This document shows positions 13,223 through 48,817 of a stretch of DNA of 54,620 bases, piece after piece (the stretch's first letter is position 1; every line of letters begins with the position of its first letter). This stretch comes from Methylophaga sp. (GTDB taxonomy: Bacteria; Pseudomonadota; Gammaproteobacteria; Nitrosococcales; Methylophagaceae): the NCBI GenBank assembly GCA_026988435.1, contig JALSLH010000039.1, positions 1-54,620 of the forward strand. Direction: 5' to 3'. The notes beneath the pieces are model-generated. The model made no database searches. It saw only the letters and a program-made list of their open reading frames with translations, and was not told the origin of the DNA. A program made the position numbers and the translations under genes.

Positions 13223-14693
13223 TGGTAAAAACAGCGTTTTATGGCTCTTGGCTATTCAAATTTTTTTGACGATTGAATCTTTGATAACGCAAGGCATTGA
13301 ACTAACACATATCGTTTCTATTCTTATTGCTTTTATAGTTGTCTTTTTATTTTTTAAGCAATCAAATAGAGAACTGCATATTATCAAGTCTATGTTTAAA
13401 TTAGCTAACAGTATAGAAAAAGGAAAGTTAGAATATCGTATTACGCACATTGATCCTAAATCTGAGCTAGGCCCCATTGCTTGGAATTTAAATGAAGCCT
13501 TAGATCAAATTGAAGCCTATATGCGAGAGGTCAATACCTGCTTTCAATCAGCAGAAAATAATAACTTTTATCGTAAGGCACAAGTTAGTGGTATTAAAGG
13601 AGATTTTTCAGCAGGTTTAGAGAAGGTTGATGTTTCGTTGAAAATAATGGAGCAAAATTATTTTAATACCGTTAGAGATGAGTTGTTTTCTCAATTAGGT
13701 CAAATGAAAACTGAGAACTTATTAAATAGCTTAAATCGTACCCAAGATGATTTATCACGTATTGCTAATGAAATGGAGCAAGTGGAAGGAATTACTAAAC
13801 ACTCTTCAGATATCTCTTCGGCGAGTCAGGCCTCTTTAGGCACAGTCATTGATCAATTAACACAAATTATTACTAAAATTGGCTCGATGAAAGAGTCTTC
13901 ATTAGAACTTAGTCAAAGTAGCAAAGAGATTACGGATGTTACTTCTTTAATTACTAAAATTGCAGATCAAACTAATTTATTAGCACTGAATGCAGCAATT
14001 GAGGCAGCACGAGCAGGTGAACATGGCCGTGGCTTTGCCGTGGTTGCTGATGAAGTTCGTACATTGGCTGAAAATACGAAGTCAGCGACAGCAAAAATCA
14101 ATGCGACTATTGAAAAATTCACTCATGCAACAAAACTCATCGTACAAGATACTGAGGGTATGGCGAGTATGACTGATGATTCTAAAATTGCTATTGGCGA
14201 GTTTGAGAAAAATATCTCTGAAGTGGCTAAAATTTCTTTGGAAACTTATTCTAAGGTTAATATTACCCAGATGATTAGCGAGTTATCTTTAGCAAAAGTT
14301 CAGCAAATGATTTTTGTACAACAAGGGTATAGAGCGGTAGAAACTGGGGTTAATTCTGAAGCGGCTAATGCGGTCAAAGTAGACCATTTGCACTGTAATG
14401 TTGGTGTCTGGTTACAGTCAGGTAAAGGGGCACAAAATTATCAACACTTAGCTGCGTATGCTGAGCTTCAATATCCACATGAAGTGGTGCATAAATGCAT
14501 GGATCTCGCGATGCATTATTTAGCCCAACCGTGGCAAACGAATGTAGACATACAAGCGCAAATTATTGATAACTTTAAAGCGGTTGAAGCGAATAGTTTA
14601 TTAATGAATGAGAAATTTGACTTGTTATTAGAGCAGAAACAGAAATTTGAAGGCGGTACTTCTAACGAAGCAGGTGACGTTGATTTATTTTAA
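13173..14693 (+). CDS. MCP signalling and CZB domains, C-terminal half of the split chemoreceptor
   Basis: The protein has two short membrane segments (about 20-37 and 45-61), a HAMP-like linker, and an MCP coiled coil with hairpin tip [18 protein letters not shown]. At the C-terminus is a chemoreceptor zinc-binding (CZB) domain with [11 protein letters not shown] and YPHEVVHK, giving the His/Cys ligand set. It ends GDVDLF. No good independent start exists: TTG 13173 and GTG 13200 lie inside the preceding gene and lack a ribosome site. I read it as the other half of the PAS gene, joined by frameshift or broken by mutation. Confidence 0.85.
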
Positions 14694-34007: not shown

Positions 34008-34370
34008 ATGGCTAGCATACTAGCAGTTGATGACTCAGCTTCAATGAGACAAATGGTCGCCTTTACTTTAAAAGGCGCTGGTTATACGGTTGTTGATGCT
34101 GTAGATGGTGTAGATGCACTTAATAAAGCAAAAACGCAAAAGTTTGATTGCGTAGTAACTGATGTGAATATGCCAAATATGGATGGAATTACATTAATTA
34201 AAGAGTTAAGAGCCTTACCTAATTACAAGTTTGTCCCTATGTTAATGTTAACGACAGAATCAGGTATGGATAAAAAGCAACAAGGTAAAGCTGCTGGTGC
34301 AACAGGTTGGATCGTTAAACCTTTTAATCCTGACCAACTATTAAAAACGATAAAAAAAGTTTTAGGCTAG
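34008..34370 (+). CDS. cheY: Chemotaxis response regulator CheY
   Basis: This 120-aa stand-alone receiver has the acidic pair D8-D9, phospho-acceptor D52 in VVTDVNMPNMDG, T82 or T83 in MLTTES, and K104 in IVKPFNPDQL. It has no output domain, so it is the diffusible signal that binds the motor switch (FliM) or acts within the array. A strong AGGAG ribosome site precedes it. It is the first gene behind the sigma-28-like promoter, and cheA follows 121 bp later. No cheZ is present to dephosphorylate it. Confidence 0.95.
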   Translation: MASILAVDDSASMRQMVAFTLKGAGYTVVDAVDGVDALNKAKTQKFDCVVTDVNMPNMDGITLIKELRALPNYKFVPMLMLTTESGMDKKQQGKAAGATGWIVKPFNPDQLLKTIKKVLG

Positions 34371-34491
34371 TCAACAATAAGTTTAGGTTTGCATTCTCAA
34401 AGCTTAATAGATAAAGGTTGAGTTATATAGTGATATAAGCAATAAGGTCGGCTGGTATTTTTTACTTAATTTAAAGTATACAGGTTATTCA

Positions 34492-36570
34492 ATGTCAATT
34501 GATATGGCGCAGTTTCACCAGGTTTTCTTCGAAGAAAGTTTTGAAGGCTTGGATATTATGGAGTCAGGATTATTAAACCTGGATATGGGCGATGTTGATT
34601 CTGAAGTTATTAATACAATTTTCAGGGCAGCTCATTCAATAAAAGGCGGTAGCGGAACTTTTGGTTTTACTGCGGTATCGGATTTTACCCATGTGATGGA
34701 AACGCTCTTGGATGAGATGCGTGATGGGCGCAGGCAAATTACTCAAGCGGCTGTTGATGTCTTGCTTGGTTCGGTTGATTGCTTGCGTGAAATGTTGTCG
34801 GCCATACAAGATGAAAATGATATTGATGAGGTTAGTGTCGCAGAGCATAAAAAGGCTTTGGAAATTGAGTTAAATGGTGCAAGTGGTAAGGGTAATTCAC
34901 CAGCTACTCCTGTTGAGTCGCCTGAAACAGTGGTTATTAAGGAGATGGAAAGTGCCACTGAAAGCGGATGGAAGATTTCTTTTTGTCCCCATGCGGATTT
35001 ACTAAAAACAGGTAATGATCCTGTGCGCATGTTTCGAGAGTTATCGGAGCTAGGTGATTTAGAGGTTATTGTTGATTTGCACGGCGTTCCTGCACTCTTT
35101 GAACTGGATCCTGAAGAGTGTCATTTGTCTTGGACTTTGATTCTTAAAGGAAGTGTTAAAAGAGAAGAGATTGATGATATTTTTGATTGGGTTGAAGGTG
35201 AGTGTGATTTATCTATTCAAGAATTAAACTTAGGTGAAGCGTTAGTTAATATGCAACAGACTGAGCCTTCTAGTTTGGTTGAGCAAACAACTCCAAGTGA
35301 CAGTCTAATCACTGAAAATCAGGAAAACCCTGAGCCGAAGAAAAATATTCCAACATCATCTAAACCCGTTCAAGCTAAGGAGAAAAAATCAAAAGGAGCT
35401 GCTTCGACTTCCATTCGAGTAGATACCGGGAAGATAGATACGCTCATTAATATGGTTGGTGAACTGGTTATTACTCAGTCTATGTTGAGCTTAGTCGGCG
35501 AACATTTCTCCCCTGACAAAATCGATCACCTAAAAAATGGCTTAGTGCAATTAGAAAGACACACGCGTGAGTTACAAGAAAGTGTCATGAATATCCGCAT
35601 GCTACCCATCAGCTTTGTATTTAGTCGTTTTCCTCGGCTGGTACATGATTTGAGCACTAAGCTGGATAAAAAAATTGAGTTAAAGTTAGTTGGTGAACAT
35701 ACAGAAGTTGATAAAACAGTTGTTGAACTTATTAGTGATCCGCTGGTTCATTTAGTACGCAATAGTTTGGATCATGGTATTGAAATGCCCGCTGACCGAA
35801 TTGCCGCCGGCAAGCCTGAAGTGGGCTTGATAACCCTAGAAGCTTATCATCGTGGTGGTAATATTGTTATCGAGGTGAAAGATGATGGAAAAGGACTCAA
35901 TAAGGACTTTTTACGTAATAAAGCGATAGAAAAAGGTCTTTTAGATCCTGATGCTGTGTTGACTGATAAGCAGTGCTATGAGCTGATTTTTATGGCTGGA
36001 TTCTCAACGGCAGAAAAAGTAACCGATGTTTCAGGGCGTGGCGTAGGCATGGATGTGGTACGCCGAAATATCCAGTCTTTAGGCGGCAATATTGAGATTA
36101 CATCTAATTTAGGACAGGGTTCAACCATATCAATTAATTTACCTTTAACCTTGGCTATTTTAGATGGTCAGTCTATTGCCGTAGGAGATGAGACATTTAT
36201 TGTGCCACTTGGCTCTATTATTGAGTCCATTAAAATTAACGATAATATGGTTAATCGTGTCGCTGGAAAGGGCGAGACATTTCGTTTGCGTGATGAATAC
36301 CTGCCTATAGTACGAATGCATCATGTTTTTAATGTGAAATCAGCGAAAGCAACTAAATTAACCGAAGGCTTATTAGTTGTTGTCGATGGGCAAGGTGTTC
36401 GCTGTGGCTTATTTGTCGATGATTTATTAGGCCAACAACAAGTGGTTATTAAGTCGCTAGAAGCAAACTATCGGCGTGTGGAGGGGGTATCAAGTGCAAC
36501 GATACTGGGTGATGGTTCAGTTGCGTTAATTTTGGATATTCCTGGTTTAGTACGTTTATCAAATCAGTAA
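34492..36570 (+). CDS. cheA: Chemotaxis histidine kinase CheA
   Basis: This 692-aa protein has the full CheA layout. The Hpt domain carries phospho-acceptor H48 in AAHSIKGGSGTFGF. A regulatory segment (about 165-255) resembles a P2-like domain, followed by a charged linker. Dimerisation (about 305-365) includes IDTLINMVGELVITQSML. The ATPase has LVRNSLDHGIE, DDGKGLN and GRGVGMDVV. A C-terminal CheW-like domain covers about 560-690. It phosphorylates CheY and CheB in receptor arrays with the two CheW proteins encoded downstream. Confidence 0.96.
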   Translation: MSIDMAQFHQVFFEESFEGLDIMESGLLNLDMGDVDSEVINTIFRAAHSIKGGSGTFGFTAVSDFTHVMETLLDEMRDGRRQITQAAVDVLLGSVDCLREMLSAIQDENDIDEVSVAEHKKALEIELNGASGKGNSPATPVESPETVVIKEMESATESGWKISFCPHADLLKTGNDPVRMFRELSELGDLEVIVDLHGVPALFELDPEECHLSWTLILKGSVKREEIDDIFDWVEGECDLSIQELNLGEALVNMQQTEPSSLVEQTTPSDSLITENQENPEPKKNIPTSSKPVQAKEKKSKGAASTSIRVDTGKIDTLINMVGELVITQSMLSLVGEHFSPDKIDHLKNGLVQLERHTRELQESVMNIRMLPISFVFSRFPRLVHDLSTKLDKKIELKLVGEHTEVDKTVVELISDPLVHLVRNSLDHGIEMPADRIAAGKPEVGLITLEAYHRGGNIVIEVKDDGKGLNKDFLRNKAIEKGLLDPDAVLTDKQCYELIFMAGFSTAEKVTDVSGRGVGMDVVRRNIQSLGGNIEITSNLGQGSTISINLPLTLAILDGQSIAVGDETFIVPLGSIIESIKINDNMVNRVAGKGETFRLRDEYLPIVRMHHVFNVKSAKATKLTEGLLVVVDGQGVRCGLFVDDLLGQQQVVIKSLEANYRRVEGVSSATILGDGSVALILDIPGLVRLSNQ

Positions 36571-36582
36571 TACGAAACAGTA

Positions 36583-37104
36583 ATGACTCAAGAAACTGAT
36601 ACACAAGAACTAGAAGAAACTCAGCTTGAGAACTCTATGCAGTTTTTAAGCTTTACTCTGGGTGAAGAAGAATACGGTGTTGATATATTAAGTGTTCAAG
36701 AAATACGCAGTTGGGAGCCTGTTTCTAGAATACCTAATGTACCCAGTTATGAAAAAGGAGTGGTGAATTTACGAGGTGCTATCGTTCCGATTATTGATTT
36801 ACGAGAAAGATTTAACTTAGAGCATTCTGAATATACTAACTTAACCGTTGTGGTTGTTTTGCAGACAATTTTACAAGGTAGAAGTCGTACTATGGGGCTT
36901 GTTGTTGACTCGGTTTCTGATGTCAATAATATTGATCTGCAATCAATTCAAAGTGCGCCTGATTTTGGGACAAAAGTCAGTACCGAGTTTATTAGTGGCT
37001 TAGCATTAGTTGAGGAACGAATGCTAATACTACTCGATGTTAAAAAATTATTGAAATTAGATGGTGTGGACGATGCTGCAGAGGATGATAATGATGAAAG
37101 TTAA
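36583..37104 (+). CDS. cheW: Chemotaxis coupling protein CheW (first copy)
   Basis: At 173 aa the CheW fold is marked by FTLGEEEYGVDILSVQEIRSW, VSRIPNVPSYEKGVVNLRGAIVPIIDLRERF and the closing LILLDVKKLL. An acidic tail follows (about 160-173). It links CheA to receptors. It begins 12 bp after cheA without a visible ribosome site, so coupled translation is likely. A second, different CheW lies downstream at 39595; their N-termini and tails differ. Confidence 0.95.
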   Translation: MTQETDTQELEETQLENSMQFLSFTLGEEEYGVDILSVQEIRSWEPVSRIPNVPSYEKGVVNLRGAIVPIIDLRERFNLEHSEYTNLTVVVVLQTILQGRSRTMGLVVDSVSDVNNIDLQSIQSAPDFGTKVSTEFISGLALVEERMLILLDVKKLLKLDGVDDAAEDDNDES

Positions 37105-37146
37105 ACTGCTTAAATTAACAAAGTTGATTGGTAAGGAGAATGCATA

Positions 37147-39501
37147 GTGAAAGTTAACATGCCTGTGACTGATAATGAAGTCATGATGAAAGATGGGACT
37201 ATTTTAGTAACGCGTACTAATTTAAAAGGCGTTATTACTTATGCCAATGATGCTTTTGTTGAAATAAGTGGATTTTCTTATGATGAATTAATTGGTAAAA
37301 ACCATAATATGGTACGGCACCCAGACATGCCAGCGGTTGCTTTTCAGGATTTATGGGACTCTATTAAGGGGTTGAGACCCTGGACTCAATTGGTTAAAAA
37401 CCGAACTAAATCAGGTGATTATTATTGGGTAGAAGCACATGTTACGCCTGTTTATAAACAAGGGGTTCCTGTTGAATATCTTTCTGTGCGTTATGCACCT
37501 AGCCGTGCACAGGTTAATGAAGCAGATACTTTATATCGAAAATTAAATGACAGTCGCGCGACAACGATTAGACCTGTTGGTTTAGCAAAAGTAATAAAAG
37601 CAATTAAAGAAATTTCGATCAATAAAAAAGCGGGCATTATTGCAGGTGCATTTTTATTACCTAATATTTTTTTAATGAAGCAGTTTTATGGTGCCCAACA
37701 ACTATTACCTCTTGCAATCGTCGCTTTGCTCTCTACTTTAGCTTGTATATTAGGGTATAGGTTGGTACGTGATGTCATAGGCTCCTTGGTTAAAGCGACT
37801 AATATGTGCTATCAAATGACGGATAATAATTTTAGGAATAAGACAGATATTGATCGTAATGATGTAATCGGAGGTTTCAATCGAGCCTTGTATGGCATGC
37901 AAGTTAAATTAAATGCAGACATGGCTTATATGAAACAAACAGGGAGTGAGTCTTTACGTATTAAACAAGCATTAGATAATGTCAGTTCTTGTGTCATGGT
38001 AGCTAATACTAACCTGGAAATCATTTATATGAATGATACCGTGAAAAGTATGTTCAAAAATGCTGAGAAGGATATACAGCAGCAATTACCTAATTTTGAT
38101 GCAGATAAGCTTTTAGGGGCTAATATTGATCAGTTCCATAAAAATCCAGCTCATCAAAGAGGCATGGTGCCTAATTTACAAGATACTTTAACATCGGAAT
38201 TAGTCATTGGCTCACGGCATATGAATTTTGTTGCTAACCCTGTTTTAGATGAGAGCGGAAGTCGAATTGGTACGGTAGTTGAGTGGTTGGATAGAACGCA
38301 TGAAGTTAAGATAGAAAAAGAAATTGAAAATTTAGTGGAAGGCGTTAAAACAGGGAATTTATCTGCTCGGATTGAAATGGCAGATAAAGACGGTTTCTTT
38401 GAAAAGCTAAGTCAAGGAATTAATGAATTAACAGATGGTATTGAAGGCGTTTTTTCTGATATTAATAATACGATGCACAGCATGGCAACAGGTGATTTAT
38501 CAAATAAAATTACTAATGACTATGAGGGGGTTTACGATGACTGTAAAGGCAGTATAAATGCCACGATCGATAAATTAGCGGATACTGTAGGGCAAATAAG
38601 AGAGTCGGCGGATTTTATTAATAATTCCTCACAAGAGATTGCCAGTGGTAATAATAACTTATCTGAGCGTGTAGAAGCGCAAGCGGCGAGTTTGGAAGAA
38701 ACAGCTTCGAGCATGGAGGAACTGACTAGTACCGTTAAAAATAACGCAGATAATGCCCAACAAGCTAATCAGGTAGCGAGTAGTGCTAGAGAATTGGCAG
38801 AAAAAGGTGGCACAGTCGTTATTTCAGCAGTTAATGCAATGGCTGAAATTAATGAAAGTAGTAATAAAATTGCTGAAATTATTGGTGTTATCGATGAAAT
38901 TGCCTTTCAGACGAATTTACTTGCCTTAAATGCTTCCGTTGAAGCAGCAAGGGCAGGTGAGCAAGGGCGTGGATTTTCTGTTGTAGCGACTGAAGTGCGT
39001 AATCTAGCACAACGTAGTGCCGCCGCCGCACGTGAAAGTAAAGAGCTAATTCAAACCAGTATACAAAGAGTACGTACAGGAACTGAGTTCGTTAATGAGA
39101 CAGGTGTATCATTAAATGAAATTGTCGGAGGCGTGAAAAAAGTCGGTGATATTATTTCTGAAATTGCGGCGGCTAGTATTGAGCAGTCTCAAGGAATTGA
39201 ACAAGTTAACCAAGCTGTTTCAGAAATGGACGAAATTACTCAGCAGAATGCCGCTTTAGCTGAAGAAGCTTCAGCAGCAAGTGTATCTATGAGTGACCAA
39301 TCGACTAATATGATTAATCTATTACAATTCTTTAGTTTTAATGGGGCTCCAAGTCCAGTAAATAGAGCCGTTGATCAACAGGTTCCTCCTCCAGTTTCCC
39401 CAAAACCTACTCTGCACAGTATTAATAAATCACAAGCAAAAGACATGGTAGGAAAGTCTTTTGTAGAAACAAGTGAGGATGATGAGTGGGATGAGTTTTA
39501 A
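37147..39501 (+). CDS. Aer-like PAS methyl-accepting chemotaxis protein with EWDEF tail
   Basis: At 784 aa, the Aer-type PAS (about 15-115) has KNHNMVRHPDMP and YYWVEAHVTPVY. Two adjacent membrane segments (about 165-205) form a hairpin with no real periplasmic part. A second PAS (about 280-395) and HAMP-like repeats follow. The MCP coiled coil (about 475-740) carries the tip [22 protein letters not shown]. The last five residues are EWDEF, matching the xWxxF tether that brings CheR or CheB to receptors. The GTG start is set by AAGGAG at 37133-37138. It is likely a redox or oxygen sensor through FAD on the first PAS. Confidence 0.92.
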   Translation: MKVNMPVTDNEVMMKDGTILVTRTNLKGVITYANDAFVEISGFSYDELIGKNHNMVRHPDMPAVAFQDLWDSIKGLRPWTQLVKNRTKSGDYYWVEAHVTPVYKQGVPVEYLSVRYAPSRAQVNEADTLYRKLNDSRATTIRPVGLAKVIKAIKEISINKKAGIIAGAFLLPNIFLMKQFYGAQQLLPLAIVALLSTLACILGYRLVRDVIGSLVKATNMCYQMTDNNFRNKTDIDRNDVIGGFNRALYGMQVKLNADMAYMKQTGSESLRIKQALDNVSSCVMVANTNLEIIYMNDTVKSMFKNAEKDIQQQLPNFDADKLLGANIDQFHKNPAHQRGMVPNLQDTLTSELVIGSRHMNFVANPVLDESGSRIGTVVEWLDRTHEVKIEKEIENLVEGVKTGNLSARIEMADKDGFFEKLSQGINELTDGIEGVFSDINNTMHSMATGDLSNKITNDYEGVYDDCKGSINATIDKLADTVGQIRESADFINNSSQEIASGNNNLSERVEAQAASLEETASSMEELTSTVKNNADNAQQANQVASSARELAEKGGTVVISAVNAMAEINESSNKIAEIIGVIDEIAFQTNLLALNASVEAARAGEQGRGFSVVATEVRNLAQRSAAAARESKELIQTSIQRVRTGTEFVNETGVSLNEIVGGVKKVGDIISEIAAASIEQSQGIEQVNQAVSEMDEITQQNAALAEEASAASVSMSDQSTNMINLLQFFSFNGAPSPVNRAVDQQVPPPVSPKPTLHSINKSQAKDMVGKSFVETSEDDEWDEF

Positions 39502-39594
39502 GCTGATACGCAATAAAATTAAGATAAACAAGTAGTTTGTAAACCGTATGTTTTTACACGCGTAAAACATACAGCTAATGATTAGGAAGTGAAT

Positions 39595-40089
39595 ATGGCT
39601 AACGACGCTATGGGTAATCAATCGAATATGAGCGGACAGTATTTGACTTTTGATTTAGCAGGAGAAATGTATGGCGTTGAAATCTTGAAAGTACAAGAAA
39701 TTCGAGGCTGGGAAAAAGTGCGTAATATTCCTAATGCGCCTGATTATATCAAGGGAGCGCTCAATTTACGCGGAGAAGTCGTCCCTATCATTGATTTACG
39801 CGTACGTTTTGCAATGGAGAATAGAGAGTTCACTCCTGTTACTGTGGTTATTGTTTTATGTGTTGAATCTGAGCAAGGAACTAATGTCATTGGTGTTGTT
39901 GCAGATGCGGTTGCAGATGTTTTAGATATTAAATTAGCAGATATTAAAGAAAAACCAAATTTAGGAAGCAAAATTGATACCCGCTTTATGCGTGGTATTT
40001 ACGTGTATAAACAAAATATGATTATGCTTTTAAATGTCGATAAGCTACTTAACCCAGATGAGTTTGAAGGGCTGCCTAGTTTATTATGA
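39595..40089 (+). CDS. cheW: Chemotaxis coupling protein CheW (second copy)
   Basis: At 164 aa from the ATG at 39595, it has the CheW fold with FDLAGEMYGVEILKVQEIRGW, YIKGALNLRGEVVPIIDLRVRF, and the closing MLLNVDKLL. AGGA stands at 39582-39585, which favours this ATG over the in-frame GTG at 39589. It differs from the first CheW by a short tail without the acid run. Its stop overlaps parA by 4 bp, so it is translated with the ParA-type ATPase and may be the array protein that ATPase senses. Confidence 0.94.
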   Translation: MANDAMGNQSNMSGQYLTFDLAGEMYGVEILKVQEIRGWEKVRNIPNAPDYIKGALNLRGEVVPIIDLRVRFAMENREFTPVTVVIVLCVESEQGTNVIGVVADAVADVLDIKLADIKEKPNLGSKIDTRFMRGIYVYKQNMIMLLNVDKLLNPDEFEGLPSLL

Positions 40090-40847
40090 GTGTTAGAGTG
40101 GTTGCTATTATTAATCAAAAAGGGGGTGTTGGTAAAACGACTACCTCGACGAATCTCACCCATGCTTTAGCTAAAAAAGGCTATAAAGTGACTGTTATTG
40201 ATTTAGATCCGCAAGGACATTTGGCCGTTTCTTTTGGGGTAACATCGCCTCAGATTAGTGGTGTTGATGCAGTGATGTTAGGTGAGAAAAATATTGAGCA
40301 ACAGCTTATTGTCGCTCGTGATAATTTGCAGCTTATTGTTGCTGGTCCGAGGCTACAAGAGATAGAGCAGTTGACCGATGGCGGTGCAAAACGTGGTGAT
40401 TTATTGCGCAAAGCATTGCATGAGAATTTACAAGACCAAGATTTTGTTTTTGTTGATTGTCCACCTTCATCGGGTGTATTGGTCGCAAATGCATTATTTG
40501 TAGCGGATGAGGTTTTAATTCCGATGACGAGTGACTTTTTGGCACTACAAGGTTTGTCGCATTTAGTTGCTACTTTAAAGCGCTTTGAAAGTGCATTAAA
40601 GAAAAAATATAAAATTTCTTTAGTGATGTCTCGCTATGCAACGACAAGACGTATATCTAAAGAAGTTTTAAGTACGATGTTAAAACATTTTCCCAATCAG
40701 GTACTAGCGACTGTTATTCGAGAGGCTTCGGTATTAGCCGAGTGTCCTAGTTTTGGTAAAACAATTTTAGAGTATCGACCTGGAAGCCGTTCAGCACGAG
40801 ATTTTCGTGATTTAGCGAATGCTTTTCTTGAAGGTAAGGTGATGTAA
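40086..40847 (+). CDS. ParA-family ATPase of the chemotaxis cluster (ParC-like)
   Basis: This 253-aa ParA/Soj protein has the deviant Walker A motif KGGVGKTTT (from 12), DLDPQGHLAVSFG, and VDCPPSSGV as Walker B. ParA homologues in che operons (ParC of Vibrio, PpfA of Rhodobacter) position chemoreceptor arrays at poles or through the cell. Here no chromosome ParB or plasmid genes are near, and it overlaps cheW, so an array-positioning role is likely. A ParP-like coupling partner is not evident. The STAS protein that follows without a gap might be its partner, which is an inference. Confidence 0.88.
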   Translation: MSVRVVAIINQKGGVGKTTTSTNLTHALAKKGYKVTVIDLDPQGHLAVSFGVTSPQISGVDAVMLGEKNIEQQLIVARDNLQLIVAGPRLQEIEQLTDGGAKRGDLLRKALHENLQDQDFVFVDCPPSSGVLVANALFVADEVLIPMTSDFLALQGLSHLVATLKRFESALKKKYKISLVMSRYATTRRISKEVLSTMLKHFPNQVLATVIREASVLAECPSFGKTILEYRPGSRSARDFRDLANAFLEGKVM

Positions 40848-41309
40848 ATGACGACAAAAAATAAAGATAGTTTAATTGGTTTTGATCCACTCGCTTGGAT
40901 CAATGATGATGAGTCACCAGCTCAAGAGGAAACCTCAGTAGAACAGGTAGTTGATAGCGCAATAGTTGATAAGCCTGAGAATGAAGATTTAACTACTGAA
41001 ATCAGTGAGTTTATAGATAATTCAAAAATTCTCTTAGAGGATACGCTCAATATTAGTACGGTGACAGAGCTACACAGTCATTTAGTACAAGCTTTACAAG
41101 ATAATGAGTGTTTAGATATTGATGCTGCGAATGTGAATAGTATTGATACTGCAAGTTTACAGTTGTTTGTTGTTTTAAAGCAGGAGGCACTCAAGTTAAA
41201 TAAGGATATTATTTTTGATTTTCCATCGGATAAATTTATAGAAGCGGCTAAACTGCTAGGTATCGATAATATGCTAGGGGTTGATCAGGCTGCTGCTGGT
41301 TTTTTCTGA
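40848..41309 (+). CDS. STAS-domain protein with acidic N-terminal extension
   Basis: At 153 aa, the C-terminal 95 residues form a STAS (SpoIIAA-like) domain with LDIDAANVNSIDTASLQLFVVL and a conserved DKFIEAAKLLGID end. In place of the usual D-S-S phospho-site it reads IDTASL, so Thr or Ser could be the target. The N-terminal 60 residues are acidic and disordered, and begin with a hydrophobic peptide LIGFDPLAWI that looks like a docking motif. It starts directly at the ParA stop. Its role in chemotaxis is not established. Confidence 0.75.
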   Translation: MTTKNKDSLIGFDPLAWINDDESPAQEETSVEQVVDSAIVDKPENEDLTTEISEFIDNSKILLEDTLNISTVTELHSHLVQALQDNECLDIDAANVNSIDTASLQLFVVLKQEALKLNKDIIFDFPSDKFIEAAKLLGIDNMLGVDQAAAGFF

Positions 41310-41339
41310 CCAGAGTACAGCAAAGAAAGGATAAAAACG

Positions 41340-42170
41340 ATGGAAAAACAGCGTGAATTTAACTATACCCGAGCAAATTTTGAAGTACTGAGAGCCATAT
41401 CAAATAGTCATTCTGGCATTATTGTTACAGATGATAAGTTTGATATGTTTTATTCTCGCCTATCAAAGCGTGTAAGAATGCTAGGCTTAAAGGATTTTCA
41501 GGAATATTGCCAGTACTTGAAAAATAACGAAGAACATGAGTTTACAGAGTTTATTAATGCGATTACGACAAATTTAACCGCTTTTTTTCGTGAAAATCAT
41601 CATTTTGAATATGTAAAAAATACGATTATCCCTGAATTACTTAAACGAAATCATATGAGTAGGGAAATTAAGGTATGGTCTGCTGGCTGTTCTACTGGAG
41701 AAGAGCCTTATTCTATCGCGATGACATTATTGGAAAACTTACCTAAGAACTGGAATGTAAAGATTTTGGCCACAGATTTAGATACGAATGTTTTACAAAC
41801 TGCCGCAACAGGTATTTATGGAGATGATCGTGTCAGTGGTTTATCAACAGATCGCTTAAAAAGATGGTTTAAAAAAGGCATTGGCAGGAATGCGAATAAA
41901 GTAAAAGTTAAACCTGAACTGCAAGCCTGCATTCGTTTTAAACAACTTAATTTGATGAATGAATGGCCTATGAAAGGGCATTTTGATTTTATTTTTTGTC
42001 GTAATGTAATTATTTATTTTGATCGAGATACAAAGGAAAAGCTTGTTAATCGTTACAGTACTTTATTATTTACAGGCGCACATTTATTAATTGGTCACTC
42101 GGAGTCTTTACATCAAATTGAGACTGATTTTGATTTAATTGGTAATACTATTTATCGAAAAATAAGATAA
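41340..42170 (+). CDS. cheR: Chemotaxis protein methyltransferase CheR
   Basis: At 276 aa, the N-terminal helical domain (about 1-85) is followed by a SAM-dependent methyltransferase with VWSAGCSTGEEPYSIAM and ILATDLDTNVLQTA. The later motif FDFIFCRNVIIYFD is also diagnostic. It methylates glutamates of MCPs with SAM. RBS AAAGGA at 41326-41331. It can be tethered by the EWDEF tail of the receptor at 37147, which would fit the N-terminal pentapeptide site known in the family. Confidence 0.96.
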   Translation: MEKQREFNYTRANFEVLRAISNSHSGIIVTDDKFDMFYSRLSKRVRMLGLKDFQEYCQYLKNNEEHEFTEFINAITTNLTAFFRENHHFEYVKNTIIPELLKRNHMSREIKVWSAGCSTGEEPYSIAMTLLENLPKNWNVKILATDLDTNVLQTAATGIYGDDRVSGLSTDRLKRWFKKGIGRNANKVKVKPELQACIRFKQLNLMNEWPMKGHFDFIFCRNVIIYFDRDTKEKLVNRYSTLLFTGAHLLIGHSESLHQIETDFDLIGNTIYRKIR

Positions 42171-42225
42171 AAAGCATACAATTTCTCATCACACATGGAC
42201 ACGTTGATGTAGGATACACTAGAAA

Positions 42226-42942
42226 ATGCAGCGCAACATTTACCTTGATTTTTCGAACTTAATTATTCAAACGTCAGTAGATAATGAGACATTACAAAAA
42301 TACGTTATTATGAATGAAAATATAGCCCCCCCTTCAGTTGAAGGGTTTGAGTCAATAAAACGTTACTGGGATAAACAAAATAATATTGTTACTGCCAAAG
42401 TATTACCTGGCGAGTATTATGTAACTAGGGAAAATGAACTTATTACCACTGTCCTGGGTTCTTGTATTTCAGCTTGTATTCGCGATCCTATCTCTGGTAT
42501 AGGTGGTATGAATCATTTTATGCTGCCTGAAACAAGTAAAGCACGTTTACAAGCGGGTGATGAGGCCGTTGTGGGTAATGCTACGCGCTATGGAAATTAT
42601 GCAATGGAACATTTAATTAATATCATTTTATCTAACGGTGGTAAACGAAAAAATCTTGAGGTCAAGCTATTTGGTGGCGGAAAAATTATCCCAACTATGA
42701 GTGATGTGGGAGCAAGAAATATACAGTTTGTATTAGATTATGTCGATGCTGAGGCTTTGCGATTGCTTGCCCAAGATTTAGGCGATATTTATCCACGTAA
42801 AGTGAATTATTACCCCCAGACGGGTAAAGTTAAAATGAAAAAAATTCAAGATATACATAATGAAACGCTTGCTATTAGAGAGAAGCGATACTTTAACAGT
42901 ATTAAAGATATGCCTGTTGAAAGTGATATTGAATTATTTTAA
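42226..42942 (+). CDS. cheD: Chemoreceptor glutamine deamidase CheD
   Basis: The core matches CheD: LPGEYYVTRENELITTVLGSC with the catalytic Cys, GGMNHFMLPE with the catalytic His, then VKLFGGGKIIPTM and AEALRLLAQDLG. It deamidates receptor glutamines. The 28 residues before MNENIAPPSVEGFE are not seen in typical CheD proteins, so the true start may be the ATG at 42310; that site lacks a ribosome signal, while 42226 has AGGA upstream. It ends DIELF, like the MCP tails in this window. Confidence 0.92.
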   Translation: MQRNIYLDFSNLIIQTSVDNETLQKYVIMNENIAPPSVEGFESIKRYWDKQNNIVTAKVLPGEYYVTRENELITTVLGSCISACIRDPISGIGGMNHFMLPETSKARLQAGDEAVVGNATRYGNYAMEHLINIILSNGGKRKNLEVKLFGGGKIIPTMSDVGARNIQFVLDYVDAEALRLLAQDLGDIYPRKVNYYPQTGKVKMKKIQDIHNETLAIREKRYFNSIKDMPVESDIELF

Positions 42943-42955
42943 GGGAATATGTTAG

Positions 42956-44044
42956 ATGGAAAAAATACGCTTATTAATTATTGATGATTCAGCACTTATT
43001 CGTACGATGTTGAGTAAAATATTTGAGTCTTCAGCTGCAATTGAGGTCGTTGGGACTGCTGCAGACCCTATTATCGCCAGAGATAAGATTAAGAAACTAA
43101 AACCTGACGTTTTAACTTTGGATATTGAAATGCCACGCATGGATGGGTTAACTTTTTTGCGTAATTTAATGCGCTTAAGGCCTATGCCGGTGGTTATGAT
43201 TTCGACTCTAACTGAGAAGGGTGCTGAGGTAACTTTAGAAGCCCTATCTATTGGTGCTGTCGATTTTGTTGCTAAGCCAAAAGTAGATGTGGCCAATACA
43301 CTGAATGCCTACGCCGAAGATTTAATTGCAAAAGTTAAAGCAGCAGCTAAAGCAAATATACGATCTGGATCTAGCTCAGTCAGTAATCAAAGCAATCATA
43401 AACAGGCAGCTAATATTTCTACAAAATTAAACATCCAAGATGAACAAGCGACGACTCCGAAAAAACATTTTGTTACTACGGAAAAAATTATTGCTATAGG
43501 TTCATCGACAGGGGGAACAGAAGCAGTTAAAAATGTAGTAAAAGGTTTACCAACAACAACCCCTGCCATTGTTATTACCCAGCATTTACCCATTGCTTTT
43601 AGTGCTTCTTTTGCTAAGCATGTTAATGAGGTAACTGAAATGAAAGCCTGTGTTGCTGAAGAAGGCCAAGTGATTAAGTCAGGGCATATTTATATTGCGC
43701 CAGGAGATAGGCACTTACTCGTGATTAGGCATGGTATACATTATGTCTGTCAGTTAAATGATGGCCCGCTTGTGAATAGGTTTAAGCCTTCTGTGGAAGT
43801 GATGTTTCGTTCCATCGCACAAAATGTTGGCAGTAATGCCATAGGTGTCATGCTTACAGGAATGGGAGCCGATGGTGCTGTGGCCATGAAAGAAATGCGT
43901 GATGCTGGATCAACAAATATCATTCAAGATGAAGCCAGTAGTGTCGTATGGGGTATGCCAGGCGAAGCTTATCGCCAAGGTGCAGCGCATTATGTACAGC
44001 CTCTCGATCAAGTTGCTGCACAAATACTTGCACTCGTTAAATAA
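42956..44044 (+). CDS. cheB: Protein-glutamate methylesterase CheB
   Basis: This 362-aa protein has a receiver domain with D56 in [11 protein letters not shown] and a C-terminal methylesterase with the catalytic triad region. The Ser is in [13 protein letters not shown], the His in ITQHLP, and the Asp in [12 protein letters not shown]. The linker (about 130-175) is rich in Ser, Asn and Lys. It demethylates MCPs when phosphorylated by CheA. It follows cheD by 13 bp and precedes an MCP by 13 bp. Confidence 0.96.
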
Positions 44045-44057
44045 CCTGGAAATTAAA

Positions 44058-45263
44058 ATGTCGCTTCTTTTGAAAAAAATCATTTGGCCTTTTGTGTTCA
44101 CATTAGTTGCTTTGTTTTTACCGCTATTTTTTTCTATAGAAATCTTGTATTGGGTTGTTATTCCAAGTTTATTTGGACTTTTCTGTGTACTTACTTACCA
44201 AGCTCAGCAAGCTAATTTTATAAAGGATGGAGAGCTTGAGGATGAAAATTTTTCTGTAGAAGGGGCAGTTGATCAGTATTTACAGACATTACAGCACTGT
44301 ACCAAACAAGAAGTTATTGATTTTGTTGGTGAGTTAGAACAAGTAAAGCAAGTTGTTTCGGATGCCGTTGTTACTATGTCGAATAGTTTTACTGAAATGC
44401 ATAATCTTTCGGTTCAGCAGGCAAATGCAATGCATTCATTAGTCAATAATTTAGAAAGTAATTCTACTGAAGAAAGTGAAAAAAAATCAGTAAATTTTGA
44501 ACAATTTGCAGAAGAAACTGATGGGGTTTTAGCTTATTTTATCGAGCATATTTTAGAGGTTAGTAAACAAAGCATGGAGATGGTTGCCGTTGTAAGTGAT
44601 GTTGATGAGCATATGAAAAAAATTGTCGTCTTATTGGCTGATGTACAAGGTATTGCGGATCAAACCAATCTATTAGCACTCAATGCGGCGATTGAAGCAG
44701 CAAGAGCAGGAGAGGCTGGACGTGGTTTTGCTGTAGTTGCTGATGAGGTTAGAAATTTATCTAAACATTCTGATAAATTTAGTGAAGAAATCAAGAAGGT
44801 AGTGGGGGAGTCGCGTACAAATATTAATAATGCCAAACAAATGATTGAAAAAATGGCATCAAGAGACATGAATATAGCCATTACTTCCAAATCGCATATT
44901 GACGAGATGATGCGTGACATTGGTACGATGAATGCAAATATGTCGGTACAATTAACGCAAGTATCAGGACTCTCTAGTCAAATGGAGCAAGCAGTTGGAG
45001 GTGCTATTCGAGCTTTACAGTTTGAAGATATGGCACGCCAGCAAATTGAATTTCTACAAAGCAATGTACATCATTTTCAAGCGCTAAGTGACGAAGTTCA
45101 AATCGGCTTAGGGAGCTTTAAAATGTCTGATATTCTTATGCAAAAAAATGAATTAGAATCAGGAGTACAGCGCTTTAAAGATATGCAGGCACTATGGAAA
45201 ATTAAAGAAAAGAAAGCCGTTGTACAGAACACAATGGAAGAAGGTGAAATTGATTTGTTTTAG
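44058..45263 (+). CDS. Membrane-anchored methyl-accepting chemotaxis protein without sensor domain
   Basis: I place the start at ATG 44058 ([16 protein letters not shown] upstream), which gives 401 aa; the frame is open further up into cheB but that part is not protein-like. Two hydrophobic segments (about 7-25 and 29-46) leave only a few residues outside. The cytoplasmic part is a short MCP coiled coil with tip [22 protein letters not shown]. Without a ligand domain it may sense through the membrane or through partners. It ends EGEIDLF. It follows cheB directly. Confidence 0.88.
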
Positions 45264-45377
45264 CCTGTATAGACAAACCTTTTCAGAATCTTCCAACCTA
45301 ATGACAACGTGGAAACCTGATTTTGGGACTATGTACTAACACTAGTTAATAATTAATTAATATTTTAGGGATATAAC

Positions 45378-45683
45378 ATGACAGTTGAAGTTTTATTAAA
45401 TAAAAGTAATAACGAGTTACAAGTAAAAGTTATAGGGCGTTTTGACTTTAGTCTACACCAAGATTTCCGTAAGCTATCAGAGCAGGCTGCAAAAGGTATT
45501 AGCTCAATTAGTATAGATCTTGGCAGAACCGAGTATGTGGATAGCTCCGCTTTAGGTATGCTTTTAGTATTACGTGATAAAGTGGGCAGCCAGCAAAGTG
45601 CGATAAAAATCATCAATGCTTCCCCTGAAGTCAAAAAAATATTGACCATTGCTAATTTTGATAAATTATTTACAGTGATGTAA
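45378..45683 (+). CDS. STAS-domain anti-sigma factor antagonist (HsbA-like)
   Basis: This 101-aa single STAS domain has the phospho-site region EYVDSSALGMLLVLRD, where the Ser after Asp is the expected target. It is followed 19 bp later by a receiver-phosphatase-kinase fusion. Together they form a partner-switching pair like HsbA and HsbR of Pseudomonas aeruginosa, which links FlgM release and c-di-GMP signalling to motility. RBS AGGGA at 45366-45370. A 114-bp gap after the MCP could hold a promoter; none was recognised. Confidence 0.88.
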   Translation: MTVEVLLNKSNNELQVKVIGRFDFSLHQDFRKLSEQAAKGISSISIDLGRTEYVDSSALGMLLVLRDKVGSQQSAIKIINASPEVKKILTIANFDKLFTVM

Positions 45684-45702
45684 GGCAAAAACACCAAAGC
45701 TG

Positions 45703-47403
45703 ATGATATTAGATAAAAAAATACAATATAAATCTAAGATCCTAGTTGCAGATGATAGTAAGCTGCAACGCATATTGTTAGAAAAAATATTCTCCCAAGC
45801 AGGATATAAAATTTTTGTGGCTGAGGATGGAGATGAGGCATTACAACTTTTTAAGAAAGAAAGGCCAGATCTTGTTGTTTTAGATATTCTGATGCCAAAA
45901 ATGAATGGAATTGAGGCAGCGACTAAAATAAAGAAAATTTCAGGTGCTGAGTATGTGCCTATTATTTTTATTACTGGGGATAGTCGTGAGGAATACTTGC
46001 AGTATTGTATAGATGCTGAAGGCGATGATTTTATTTATAAACCAATTAATGAATTGGTATTAAAAGCAAAAGTAAATTCTTTGTTGCGTTTTCGGCAGCT
46101 TTGTCAGAAGCAATATAGCCAAAAGCAACAGCTATTAGAATATCAGCACAAAATGGATCAAGAGCATGAAATTGCCGCAACATTGTATAAAAATATTGTT
46201 CACGCTGGATTTTATGATACACCAGAAGTGAAATATCGCTTATCTCCCATGGCTTTGTTTAATGGTGATATATTTTTGGTGGCTAAATCGCCAGGTAATC
46301 AACTTTATGTTTTATTAGGTGATTTTACAGGGCATGGTTTAGCCGCCTCGGTAGGTGCAGGGCCTGCGGCAGAAATTTTCTATGGTATGACAGAAAAAGG
46401 GTTTGGCTGTAGCGAAATTATTGTTGAAATTAACCGCAAAATGCATAAATTGCTACCTGTTAATATGTTTTTAGCAGCTACGGTTGTGGTTTTTTTTCCG
46501 GATACTAACTCCATGAGCTTGATCACTTGTGGTTTACCCGATCATTATTTATTTAATCATAAGACTAAGCAGTTACAGACTATTATTTCCAAAAACTTAC
46601 CTTTAGGTATTATTGATAGCTTTGTGCCCGACATGCAACATATGCCGATTAGTAAAGATAGCTTTTTGTACTTGTTTACCGATGGTGTTATTGAGGCTGA
46701 AAACACACAAGGTGAGCAGTTTGATGCGCCTAGTGTGATTAACAGTATTGATGGTGATATTGATGGTTATACTGCGGTTTTAAGTGCATTAGATAAGCAT
46801 ACTAAGGGAATGGGGCAGCAAGATGATATTACTTTTGTTGAGTTAAACTGTAATGTTTCAGATGCTCAATGGATGCAAGTAGCAACTAAAGCAACACATA
46901 AAAAGTTACAAGCGCTTTCTTGGAAGGGATCTATGGAGTTCCAGAGTTCCTCCTTACGACATGCTAACCCCGTTCCTGTCGTGATTAATTTAATTATGGA
47001 AATTCAAGGGTTAATTGAGCACCGTGAGTCTATTTTTTTAATTGTTACTGAGTTATTTGCTAATGCTTTAGAGCATGGGTTATTAGAATTGGATTCTAAA
47101 ATGAAACAAAGTGCTGATGGTTTTATGCAATATTATTCAACTCGAGAGGAGAGGCTAGCGCAATTAAGTGATGGCTATATAAAAATGAGTTTTAATCATC
47201 AGCCGACGAAGACAGGTGGAAAATTAGTGATTAGAATGCAAGACTCTGGGCCAGGCTTTGATTTTTCAAAGGTATCATCAGACTTAAAGCAGAATGAACA
47301 AAACTTTGGGCGTGGCATAAGTCTCTTATTTAACTTATGTAAGACAGTTGAGTACAGTGGTAATGGTAATCGTGTGAAAGCAGTTTATGAGTGGACTGCA
47401 TAA
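45703..47403 (+). CDS. Receiver, PP2C phosphatase and HATPase fusion (HsbR-like)
   Basis: This 566-aa protein has three parts. The receiver (about 12-130) carries D61 in LVVLDILMPKMNG. A SpoIIE/RsbU-type PP2C phosphatase (about 180-390) has LLGDFTGHGLAASVGAGPAAE and YLFTDGVIEAEN. The C-terminal GHKL kinase (about 430-566) has FANALEHG and MQDSGPGFDF, as in RsbW. It can both phosphorylate and dephosphorylate the STAS partner under control of receiver phosphorylation, perhaps by CheA. The architecture and partner match HsbR. Confidence 0.9.
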   Translation: MILDKKIQYKSKILVADDSKLQRILLEKIFSQAGYKIFVAEDGDEALQLFKKERPDLVVLDILMPKMNGIEAATKIKKISGAEYVPIIFITGDSREEYLQYCIDAEGDDFIYKPINELVLKAKVNSLLRFRQLCQKQYSQKQQLLEYQHKMDQEHEIAATLYKNIVHAGFYDTPEVKYRLSPMALFNGDIFLVAKSPGNQLYVLLGDFTGHGLAASVGAGPAAEIFYGMTEKGFGCSEIIVEINRKMHKLLPVNMFLAATVVVFFPDTNSMSLITCGLPDHYLFNHKTKQLQTIISKNLPLGIIDSFVPDMQHMPISKDSFLYLFTDGVIEAENTQGEQFDAPSVINSIDGDIDGYTAVLSALDKHTKGMGQQDDITFVELNCNVSDAQWMQVATKATHKKLQALSWKGSMEFQSSSLRHANPVPVVINLIMEIQGLIEHRESIFLIVTELFANALEHGLLELDSKMKQSADGFMQYYSTREERLAQLSDGYIKMSFNHQPTKTGGKLVIRMQDSGPGFDFSKVSSDLKQNEQNFGRGISLLFNLCKTVEYSGNGNRVKAVYEWTA

Positions 47404-47448: not shown

Positions 47449-48066
47449 ATGAATAAACCGAATCATGCAAAATCTAAATTTGTAGCCGTGGCATCTATTG
47501 CTGCTGAACTAAGTGCTGTTATGCATGTGGCAAAAGAAATTTCCTTGGCGGCTGCCAATGCTAAAGCCATTGCTTTTAGAGCCGGTGAAAAGGCAAAAGG
47601 CTTCCAGCCGATTACTGATTTTATTAATGAGTTGGCTAAAGAAACGATTGAATTAGTTAATGATATCAATGAGCATGCCTTATTACTTTACCAGATGACA
47701 GTTGATGAGCATAGGATGACTGATGCATGCCACTCTTTTGAGACAGTAGTGATATTGGCTGAAGGTGCGCCTTATGCAAGTTCATTAGATAAGTCGGTGG
47801 AACTAGCGCAACAGCGTATGCAGCTTTGTCGTACTCAATTCCGAATACATGTCAATCAACTTTTAGATCAACTCGAAGGCGTTATGCACCCTGCTAGAGC
47901 GGCACGCGTTATTGCCGCTAACTCAAGGATTGAAGCTTCACAAGCAGGGGAGTACTTACAAAGTTTACAAGCCGTAGCAGAAAGTGTTGATAATGCGGCA
48001 CAGGTTATTCATGATAATGTACAGCGTTGCCGGAGCGCATTATCCATTCTTAATATTACAGAATAG
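47449..48066 (+). CDS. Small soluble protein with two degenerate MCP hairpin-tip motifs
   Basis: This 205-aa all-helical protein has no membrane segment and no ligand domain. Residues 33-66 (AANAKAIAFRAGEKAKGF onward) follow the MCP tip pattern [20 protein letters not shown], and residues 152-180 (IAANSRIEASQAGEYLQS) follow it again. The full MCP domain is not present. It lies 45 bp after the HsbR-like gene and 22 bp before the ODP gene. It may be a mini-scaffold that joins the ODP sensor to CheA/CheW. That function is inferred. The family name is not known to me. Confidence 0.65.
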   Translation: MNKPNHAKSKFVAVASIAAELSAVMHVAKEISLAAANAKAIAFRAGEKAKGFQPITDFINELAKETIELVNDINEHALLLYQMTVDEHRMTDACHSFETVVILAEGAPYASSLDKSVELAQQRMQLCRTQFRIHVNQLLDQLEGVMHPARAARVIAANSRIEASQAGEYLQSLQAVAESVDNAAQVIHDNVQRCRSALSILNITE

Positions 48067-48088
48067 TTGCTAAAAGAGATTATTTACT

Positions 48089-48817
48089 ATGAAAATGACT
48101 AAGCTTTACGATGGATCGTACCAATGGATTATGTACGGACGGGATAAAAATAAACCTAGTAATATTATTGATACTAATCAATATATCATTCGCACGGCGA
48201 AGCGTTGCTTAGTGCTTGATCCGGGGGGAGTAGAGTTATTCGCACCGATGTTAGCGGCGGTATTGCATCATGCGCCTGTAGAAGAAATTACCGATTTATT
48301 TGCCTCGCATCAAGACCCGGATATTATTTCGTCCTTAGGGCTTTGGGACCAAGCTTTACCGCACGCAAAACTGCATGCACCTGCCTTGTGGGAAGGGTTT
48401 TTGCGACATTTCGGTTGTGAAACGATTGAATATGTTGGTATTCCTGATAATGGCGGCGTTATTCAATTGGATGGTGCGGATTTAAAAATTATCCCTGCAC
48501 ATTATTTACATTCTTCAGCTAATTTTCATATTTATGACCCAAAAGCAAAAATCCTGATGTCAGGTGATGTAGGCGCGGCATTAGAGGAGGATGGAGCTCC
48601 CATCTTTGTTGATGATTTTAATGCACATGTAGAAAAAATGCGCTTTTTTCATCAGCGTTGGATGCCCTCTAATCAAGCAAAACGTGATTGGATTGACCGA
48701 GTGCGTAAGCTTGATATTGATATTATGGCCCCCCAACATGGGCGGATCTTTAAAGGTGATGATGTGAAGCGATTTTTAGATTGGTTTGAGTCACTACAAG
48801 TAGGAATTGCTGTTTAA
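48089..48817 (+). CDS. ODP-type diiron oxygen-binding protein (MBL fold)
   Basis: This 242-aa metallo-beta-lactamase fold protein is related to flavodiiron proteins but lacks the flavodoxin domain. The metal set appears as H74-Q-D76-P-D78 in ASHQDPDII, H138 in IPAHYLHSS, D160 in MSGDVG and H217 in APQHGRI. The HQDPD pattern and lone MBL domain fit ODP, the diiron oxygen sensor that acts on chemotaxis signalling in Treponema denticola. It is the last gene of the che cluster, after the MCP-like mini-protein. Oxygen sensing here is inferred from family and context; a generic MBL hydrolase is the alternative. Confidence 0.78.
   Translation: MKMTKLYDGSYQWIMYGRDKNKPSNIIDTNQYIIRTAKRCLVLDPGGVELFAPMLAAVLHHAPVEEITDLFASHQDPDIISSLGLWDQALPHAKLHAPALWEGFLRHFGCETIEYVGIPDNGGVIQLDGADLKIIPAHYLHSSANFHIYDPKAKILMSGDVGAALEEDGAPIFVDDFNAHVEKMRFFHQRWMPSNQAKRDWIDRVRKLDIDIMAPQHGRIFKGDDVKRFLDWFESLQVGIAV

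Follow-up and report, generated by a model that had tools for sequence, protein, structure and literature searches.

The 205-aa protein that we call DT, for double tip, and the oxygen-binding diiron protein (ODP) encoded just downstream of it are proposed to form one sensory module, an oxygen/iron input adaptor for CheA, a reading to which we assign a probability of about 50%. This reading draws on the identity of the ODP, the homology of DT to MCP tips, a predicted four-helix model, the linkage of the two genes in 79 of 80 loci (the best 80 of 172 relatives), the placement of the DT-linked ODPs in one clade, and the che genes of the neighbourhood.

The DT and ODP genes close a chemosensory cluster

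The window, meaning the whole stretch of 54,620 nucleotides that was analysed, lies on contig C39 of a methanotroph-type genome assembly of 2.57 Mb and 95 contigs. The original prediction, an ODP lying 22 bp past a 205-aa gene within a che neighbourhood, was confirmed: DT (47449-48066, + strand; proposed single-chain MCP-tip pseudo-dimer) and the 242-aa ODP (48089-48817, + strand) are both intact open reading frames separated by that distance, and they close a + strand cluster that before the pair occupies 34008-47403, with cheY first and a receiver-SpoIIE-HATPase gene last. The first long gene past the ODP is on the opposite strand. The cluster order is cheY, cheA, cheW, PAS-MCP, cheW, parA-like, STAS-like, cheR, cheD, cheB, MCP, STAS and receiver-SpoIIE-HATPase, where the last two genes, the second MCP, the MCP domains and the CheW domains, including that of cheA, were named by profile and the remaining names were assigned by eye from the sequence. 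The MCP that follows cheB has an N-terminal hydrophobic stretch. When gene order alone is compared, the cluster resembles the published F7 stage 1 order, which reads anti-sigma antagonist, cheY, cheA, two cheW, aer2-like, cheR, cheD, cheB and, at its end, mcpA-like, anti-sigma antagonist and serine phosphatase (PMC7184735). The parA-like and STAS-like genes are extra in the window and, unlike in the F7 stage 1 order, no antagonist gene was seen directly before cheY. The F7 stage 1 account mentions neither DT nor ODP in its section 10, and it states the role of F7 in stage 1 and 2 organisms as unclear (PMC7184735).

Besides the DTs, the same genome encodes 13 domains that pass the MCPsignal cut-off. 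It also has 14 CheW domains, of which four lie in open frames long enough for CheA, an assignment made by length and domain. A further MCP signalling domain is found in the window outside the che cluster, at 13887-14339, within a 508-codon open frame. Among the matches listed for the 205-aa protein, the closest named relative belongs to the methanotrophic Bathymodiolus puteoserpentis endosymbiont (99% over the 205 residues); a MAG comes next, and Methyloprofundus after it.

The ODP and its conserved motifs

That the last gene encodes an ODP-type diiron protein with no flavodoxin domain had been anticipated, and the profile searches agree. The Pfam family PF19583 matches it with an E-value of 2.5e-70 and 236.8 bits, against a curated cut-off of 27.2, which places it in the family, and the solved ODPs 6qrq and 6qnm match it over almost the full length at E 4.4e-62 and 5e-55. 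Its HQDPD, PxH, SGD and PQHG motifs align with those of both solved proteins. The HQDPD motif comprises residues 74-78 (48308-48322, + strand), and alignment and motif positions indicate H138 (48500), D160 (48566) and H217 (48737) as further presumed ligands; together these correspond to the diiron ligand motifs HxDxD, H, D and H expected of the family. Neither Pfam nor sequence searches detected a flavodoxin, rubredoxin or other additional domain in the 242 residues. The protein belongs to the MBL superfamily and is weakly similar to flavorubredoxin (E 2.7e-4). By analogy with its solved relatives, the window ODP probably binds oxygen at the diiron site.

Several other arrangements of ODP genes were observed. 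Three loci of the group without DT (L072, L114 and L115) have tandem ODP genes, and in two others the ODP domain lies within open frames of 1586 codons (L094, G241:C1) and 633 codons (L033), which may be fusions or chance read-through. In genomes of the same phylum but outside the class (family f208), ODPs (L214-L219, L221-L230 and L235; 42-46% identity) are flanked, wherever both sides are available, by two small genes that look Roadblock-like by eye, and such a gene is also upstream of some gammaproteobacterial ODPs (L068, L101, L104 and L106). These Roadblock-flanked ODPs, as named by eye, are a second kind of ODP module.

Both halves of DT are related to MCP tips

The claim that the 205-aa protein holds two degenerate copies of the MCP hairpin tip held up in several comparisons. 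The window DT matches the Pfam MCPsignal family (PF00015) in two stretches at E 4.2e-6 and 27.1 bits, below the curated 34.6. Among four further DTs tested with PF00015 one, of subfamily B, passes with 46.2 bits in two stretches, and the second DT of the window's own genome has two matches that jointly reach 38.1 bits, over the cut-off. We then ran on 45 DTs a profile derived solely from 21 full-length MCPs, with no DT included. In this set of 45 sequences it detects in the window DT a first copy at residues 14-91 (iE 4.7e-10) and a second one at residues 127-190 (iE 1.3e-3). At iE 0.01, copy 1 is recovered in 16/18 DTs of subfamily A (that of the window), 10/10 of B, 4/6 of C and 2/2 of D, and copy 2 in 8/18, 10/10, 0/6 and 0/2, respectively; in subfamily B the iE of copy 2 is at most 4.2e-4 in all ten. 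Nine further DTs gave six with copy 1 only, one with copy 2 only, one with both and one with neither; the last, L037, was taken as a DT by position and family profile and has no significant MCP tip with the MCP-only profile. Among 2250 shuffled sequences, a soft control in that heptads are destroyed too, 3 reached iE 0.01, 15 reached 0.1 and 168 reached 1, so the E-values of this profile are a few-fold too good.

Profile-profile comparison with MCPs gave probabilities for halves 1 and 2 of 95% and 77% in subfamily A, 96% and 94% in B, and 95% and 48% in C. Across subfamilies, the first halves match one another at 92-95% and the second halves at 89-94%, and therefore the double layout predates the split of the subfamilies. 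Taken at the sequence level, both halves of DT are homologous to MCP hairpin tips. A chance likeness of a helical protein to MCP tips was considered and ruled out by the MCP-only profile with its shuffles, by the profile-profile match of the halves and by the agreement of the turns, since the aligned tips and the modelled turns coincide roughly, within about 5 residues. The motif of the methylation bundle was found in 1/45 DTs, but in only 3/21 of the MCPs themselves. The top-scoring solved relatives of tip copy 1 include PDB 3g67 and 4jpb (E 7.3e-6 to 1.4e-5), presumably the Thermotoga soluble receptor TM14. This receptor has one hairpin per chain, unlike DT.

Predicted fold and conservation of DT

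The AlphaFold2 model of DT, calculated with 51 relatives (pLDDT 86.6, pTM 0.77), consists of four helices at residues 4-49, 52-103, 110-163 and 167-203, and the shapes closest to it are single-chain four-helix bundles. The up-down-up-down order of the helices implies that the turns near residues 50 and 165 share one end of the bundle. As modelled, DT has the topology of an MCP dimer tip whose two subunits are connected at their base. Tip copy 1 (residues 30-70; 47536-47658, + strand), with its modelled turn at residues 50-51, is the most conserved part of DT; tip copy 2 (residues 145-185; 47881-48003, + strand) has its modelled turn at residues 164-166, and the link between the hairpins (residues 104-109; 47758-47775, + strand) is poorly conserved. 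In 18 subfamily A DTs the conservation is 0.70 for tip 1, 0.57 for tip 2, 0.50-0.51 for the arms of hairpin 1, and 0.33-0.39 for the arms of hairpin 2 and for the base. Neither the sequence nor the predicted model of DT shows a membrane or sensor part, in agreement with the soluble helical hairpins that had been expected. With helices of only 37-54 residues there is no room for a sensor, a HAMP domain or a long methylation bundle, and for lack of the latter DT would be an adaptor without adaptation of its own. Two outcomes that would have refuted the original prediction were not observed: the profile search did find a relation to MCP tips, and the predicted fold is one of helical hairpins.

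Tip residues and CheW contacts

To compare the tips with a characterized receptor, DT residues were mapped on the MCP profile and given Tsr numbers set by motif; in Tsr the contacts to CheW are reported as E402, R404 and R394 (PMC6954272). In copy 1 of subfamily A, N381 is N in 16/16 mapped sequences, E385 is I, V or M, R388 is R in 14/18, F396 is F in 18/18, V398 is P in 18/18, E402 is F in 16/18 and R404 is mostly D. In copy 2 of the same subfamily E385 is E in 11/11 mapped sequences, E391 is E in 10/11, F396 is L in 9/9 and, among 10 listed sequences, R388 is R in 6, while among mapped sequences E402 is mostly N, S or T and R404 mostly E or D. In subfamily A, other residues stand in place of the CheW contacts E402 and R404 in copy 1 as well as in copy 2, which makes docking through the standard contacts unlikely there. 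In subfamily B, whose members are close relatives, copy 1 has lost E385 and retains R388 (10/10), copy 2 has lost R388 and retains E385 (10/10), the E402 position holds D in the first copy and M in the second, and R404 is kept only in copy 2. Subfamily C retains R404 in 5/5 and E402 in 3/5 of its first copies.

The two copies are unequal: copy 1 retains the G and F of the tip, and copy 2 retains the E of the EAxxAGE motif and not the F. In MCP dimers the two subunits are described as having different jobs, and the division of residues between the copies, as read from the alignment, fits a dimer with differently tasked subunits (PMC4692393).

DT is linked to a single clade of ODPs

The neighbour analysis across genomes foreseen in the original prediction revealed a lasting link between DT and ODP. 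Relatives of DT were scanned for with 13 subfamily A proteins as queries, one tip 1 peptide pattern being required, and the best 80 of 172 were analysed, 68 of which are titled as Methylococcales genera or families or as methanotrophic symbionts. A same-strand ODP follows DT in 79 of these best 80, within 240 bp in 78 and at 388 bp in one (L139); in the 80th locus (L185) the contig ends 157 bp past DT. In 76 of the 78 loci where the gap was measured it spans 13-98 bp; the two exceptions have 192 and 388 bp. Over 369 genomes of the class, the subfamily A profile matched a DT in 22, with 22/22 beside an ODP, and the subfamily C profile in 10, with 10/10 beside an ODP, one of these partial; together the A and C profiles found DT in 30/369 genomes, and ODP is present in 78/369. 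In these searches at most 8 candidates were scored per genome, and profiles A1 and A3 were themselves built from DTs found beside ODPs. Of the places in the class-wide ODP listing all were retrieved save 23 (22 weaker and one cut by a contig end), and of those in a second listing all save 16 weaker ones.

An ODP tree of 138 rows (51 with DT, 83 without, 2 undecidable and 2 solved) was built with a quick method. The 51 DT-linked ODPs of the 134 classified proteobacterial ones form one clade on one branch, with an SH-aLRT of 99 and one label change; no DT-less ODP falls inside it and both solved ODPs fall outside. Of the 51 rows, 39 came through ODP searches and 12 through DT searches, 7 of these 12 from one earlier DT search and 5 hand-chosen from the scan above, and the tree contains the near-copies L131 of L090 and L212 of L037. 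The link between DT and ODP is lasting and has a single origin on the tree. In a simple pattern count, the DT-linked ODPs of the tree show HxDxD in 51/51, PxHG in 51/51, SGD in 47/51 and PxHxxHS in 37/51.

The window's own genome contains a second, divergent DT-ODP pair, of subfamily B, on contig C86. One break in the linkage was seen, in G016 (L207, G016:C34, 4284-5148), where an intact subfamily B DT is accompanied by an ODP without most of its middle; here the sensor was lost and the partner kept. Two genomes, G073 and G266, each have a subfamily A pair and a subfamily C pair.

Che genes around the DT-ODP pairs

At least one of the core genes cheA, cheW, cheR, cheB and cheD is present within the available flank in 58/80 DT loci (best 80 of 172). 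Considering only the 41 of these with both 10-kb flanks, 29 have a core che gene and 12 have none, 10 of the 12 being titled Methylomonas. In Methylotuvimicrobium buryatense 5G (L131) the che cluster encloses the pair, whereas a Methylomonas pair such as L151 lies away from che genes. The class-wide survey by subfamily, with 1.5-4 kb available per side, shows che genes for 6/7 subfamily C pairs, three of them in the full order CheA-MCP-CheW-DT-ODP-CheR-CheD-CheB, and for 2/2 subfamily D pairs, in the order CheY-CheA-DT-ODP-MCP-CheW. Besides the window there are 19 subfamily A pairs; 17 have no che gene (1.5-4 kb per side), L060 has only a SpoIIE-type gene and L090 has the che cluster. For subfamily B, neither the 28.7-kb contig C86 nor the surroundings of L205-L207 yielded a che gene. 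The remaining outcome that would have refuted the original prediction, homologues with neither diiron ligands nor che neighbours, was observed only in part: the ligand motifs are retained, but many pairs have no che gene in the surveyed flanks. By these counts the DT-ODP pair forms the unit rather than the cluster, so that CheA would often have to be acted on in trans.

Proposed function and alternative explanations

In the proposed mechanism, ODP would bind oxygen at its diiron site, depend on iron and change shape, and would pass this change to DT. DT would be a natural single-chain MCP dimer tip, with two hairpins in one four-helix bundle and both tips at the same end, which inserts into the CheA/CheW baseplate or binds beside it and biases CheA. 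The tips would be specialised, and subfamily A DTs should engage the array by a changed surface, because the usual CheW contacts are gone. We infer the contacts of DT with ODP and with the array (CheA/CheW), as well as the effect on CheA. In the case of T. denticola, an ODP pairs with an MCP homologue that has no membrane or sensor part and is able to modulate CheA, and CheA in the arrays turns clearly visible and ordered in cells without ODP (PMC7666581). A review describes the interaction of ODP with its cognate receptors as conformation-dependent (PMC6978683). More tentatively, DT could be a covalent pseudo-dimer of receptor tips that share the work of the two MCP subunits, and subfamily A, being off the CheW contacts, could represent an array adaptor of a new class, a tip insert that fits according to the oxygen state of the ODP. 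The basis for this would be that in subfamilies A and B the E385-type residue survives in copy 2 but not in copy 1, and that the R388-type residue survives in copy 1 and is missing from copy 2 of B and, in part, of A.

What counts against the adaptor is the replacement of E402 and R404 in subfamily A, the 12/41 fully flanked loci with no core che gene, and the lack of a che gene in the surveyed flanks of 17/19 other subfamily A pairs and in the stretches covered for subfamily B. These points speak for DT being instead a dedicated ODP partner with tip surfaces remade for ODP or something else, the output of the pair not being CheA but, for example, the receiver/SpoIIE-type phosphatase next door, whose gene (receiver-SpoIIE-HATPase) is directly upstream in the window. 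We consider this the main alternative, possible but doubtful, given that a core che gene is present in 58/80 loci (best 80 of 172), that 8/9 pairs of subfamilies C and D are surrounded by che genes, with R404 in 5/5 and E402 in 3/5 of the first copies of C, and that pairs far from che genes could act on CheA in trans. DT could also be an ordinary short soluble chemoreceptor that dimerises with a second DT, like TDE2496, its half 2 being a decayed arm. The failure of copy 2 to reach iE 0.01 in most of subfamily A (8/18 reach it) and in all of C and D (0/8), together with the known T. denticola partner being a sensorless MCP homologue, points that way; still, copy 2 is clear in subfamily B (10/10, iE at most 4.2e-4) and conserved in A, the second halves of different subfamilies align with one another at 89-94%, and the predicted model fills four helices within one chain, which renders this explanation unlikely.

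Another option in the original prediction was that DT acts as a decoy, in competition with the receptors for CheA/CheW. A tip-like protein with no sensor would suit such a role, but the decoy has no specific support: the CheW contacts are lost in subfamily A, and a steady pairing with a metalloprotein is unexpected for a plain decoy. We regard it as very improbable. Even less credence is given to the ODP being an enzyme of the oxygen, NO or peroxide reductase type that DT recruits for protection: membership of the MBL superfamily and the weak similarity to flavorubredoxin (E 2.7e-4) would agree with it, but the protein has no flavodoxin or rubredoxin part, its solved relatives are named oxygen-binding, and a role in sensing oxygen has been reported for that of T. 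denticola (PMC7666581). The oxygen/iron input adaptor for CheA is the explanation we hold most likely.

Comparison with known systems

Two signalling domains in one protein, as in DT, are also found in DosM-type receptors of Vibrio. These are large receptors with signalling domains at both ends, whereas the tips of DT share one end of a short bundle. A close parallel is the T. denticola pair TDE2498/TDE2496, which has an ODP of the same Pfam family and an MCP-related partner without membrane or sensor part, the genes being coupled. DT differs, as far as TDE2496 is known by description, in being one chain of about 205 aa with two tips, and the DT-linked ODPs form their own clade, apart from the solved ODPs. 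Rhodospirillum centenum and others have natural soluble single-chain MCP signalling domains with two units per chain, as in DT, likened to it here by description; section 26 of PMC4692393 mentions no ODP for them. The engineered single-chain Tsr~Tsr is a covalent receptor dimer, as DT would be, but an artificial and full-length serine receptor (PMC4692393).

The original prediction that no family of this layout had been described stands in part. An ODP with a sensorless receptor is already known (PMC7666581, PMC7319448 and PMC6978683), and so are natural single-chain MCP signalling domains (PMC4692393). We found in the literature no description of an ODP clade tied to a double-tip chain of about 205 aa, some genes of which may be included in a 2019 survey (Muok). 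As far as searched, this clade with its double-tip partner appears to be new, as does the window's subfamily without the CheW-contact residues of MCPs. Oxygen input to the chemosensory systems of methanotrophs is of interest because methane use needs oxygen, and bacteriohemerythrins near chemotaxis genes have been pointed to in a methanotroph context (PMC12607906). A soluble two-gene unit of sensor and tip would be a very small receptor input and, with two MCP-like subunits of different sequence in one chain, would provide a natural test of the role that is necessary for each subunit of the dimer.
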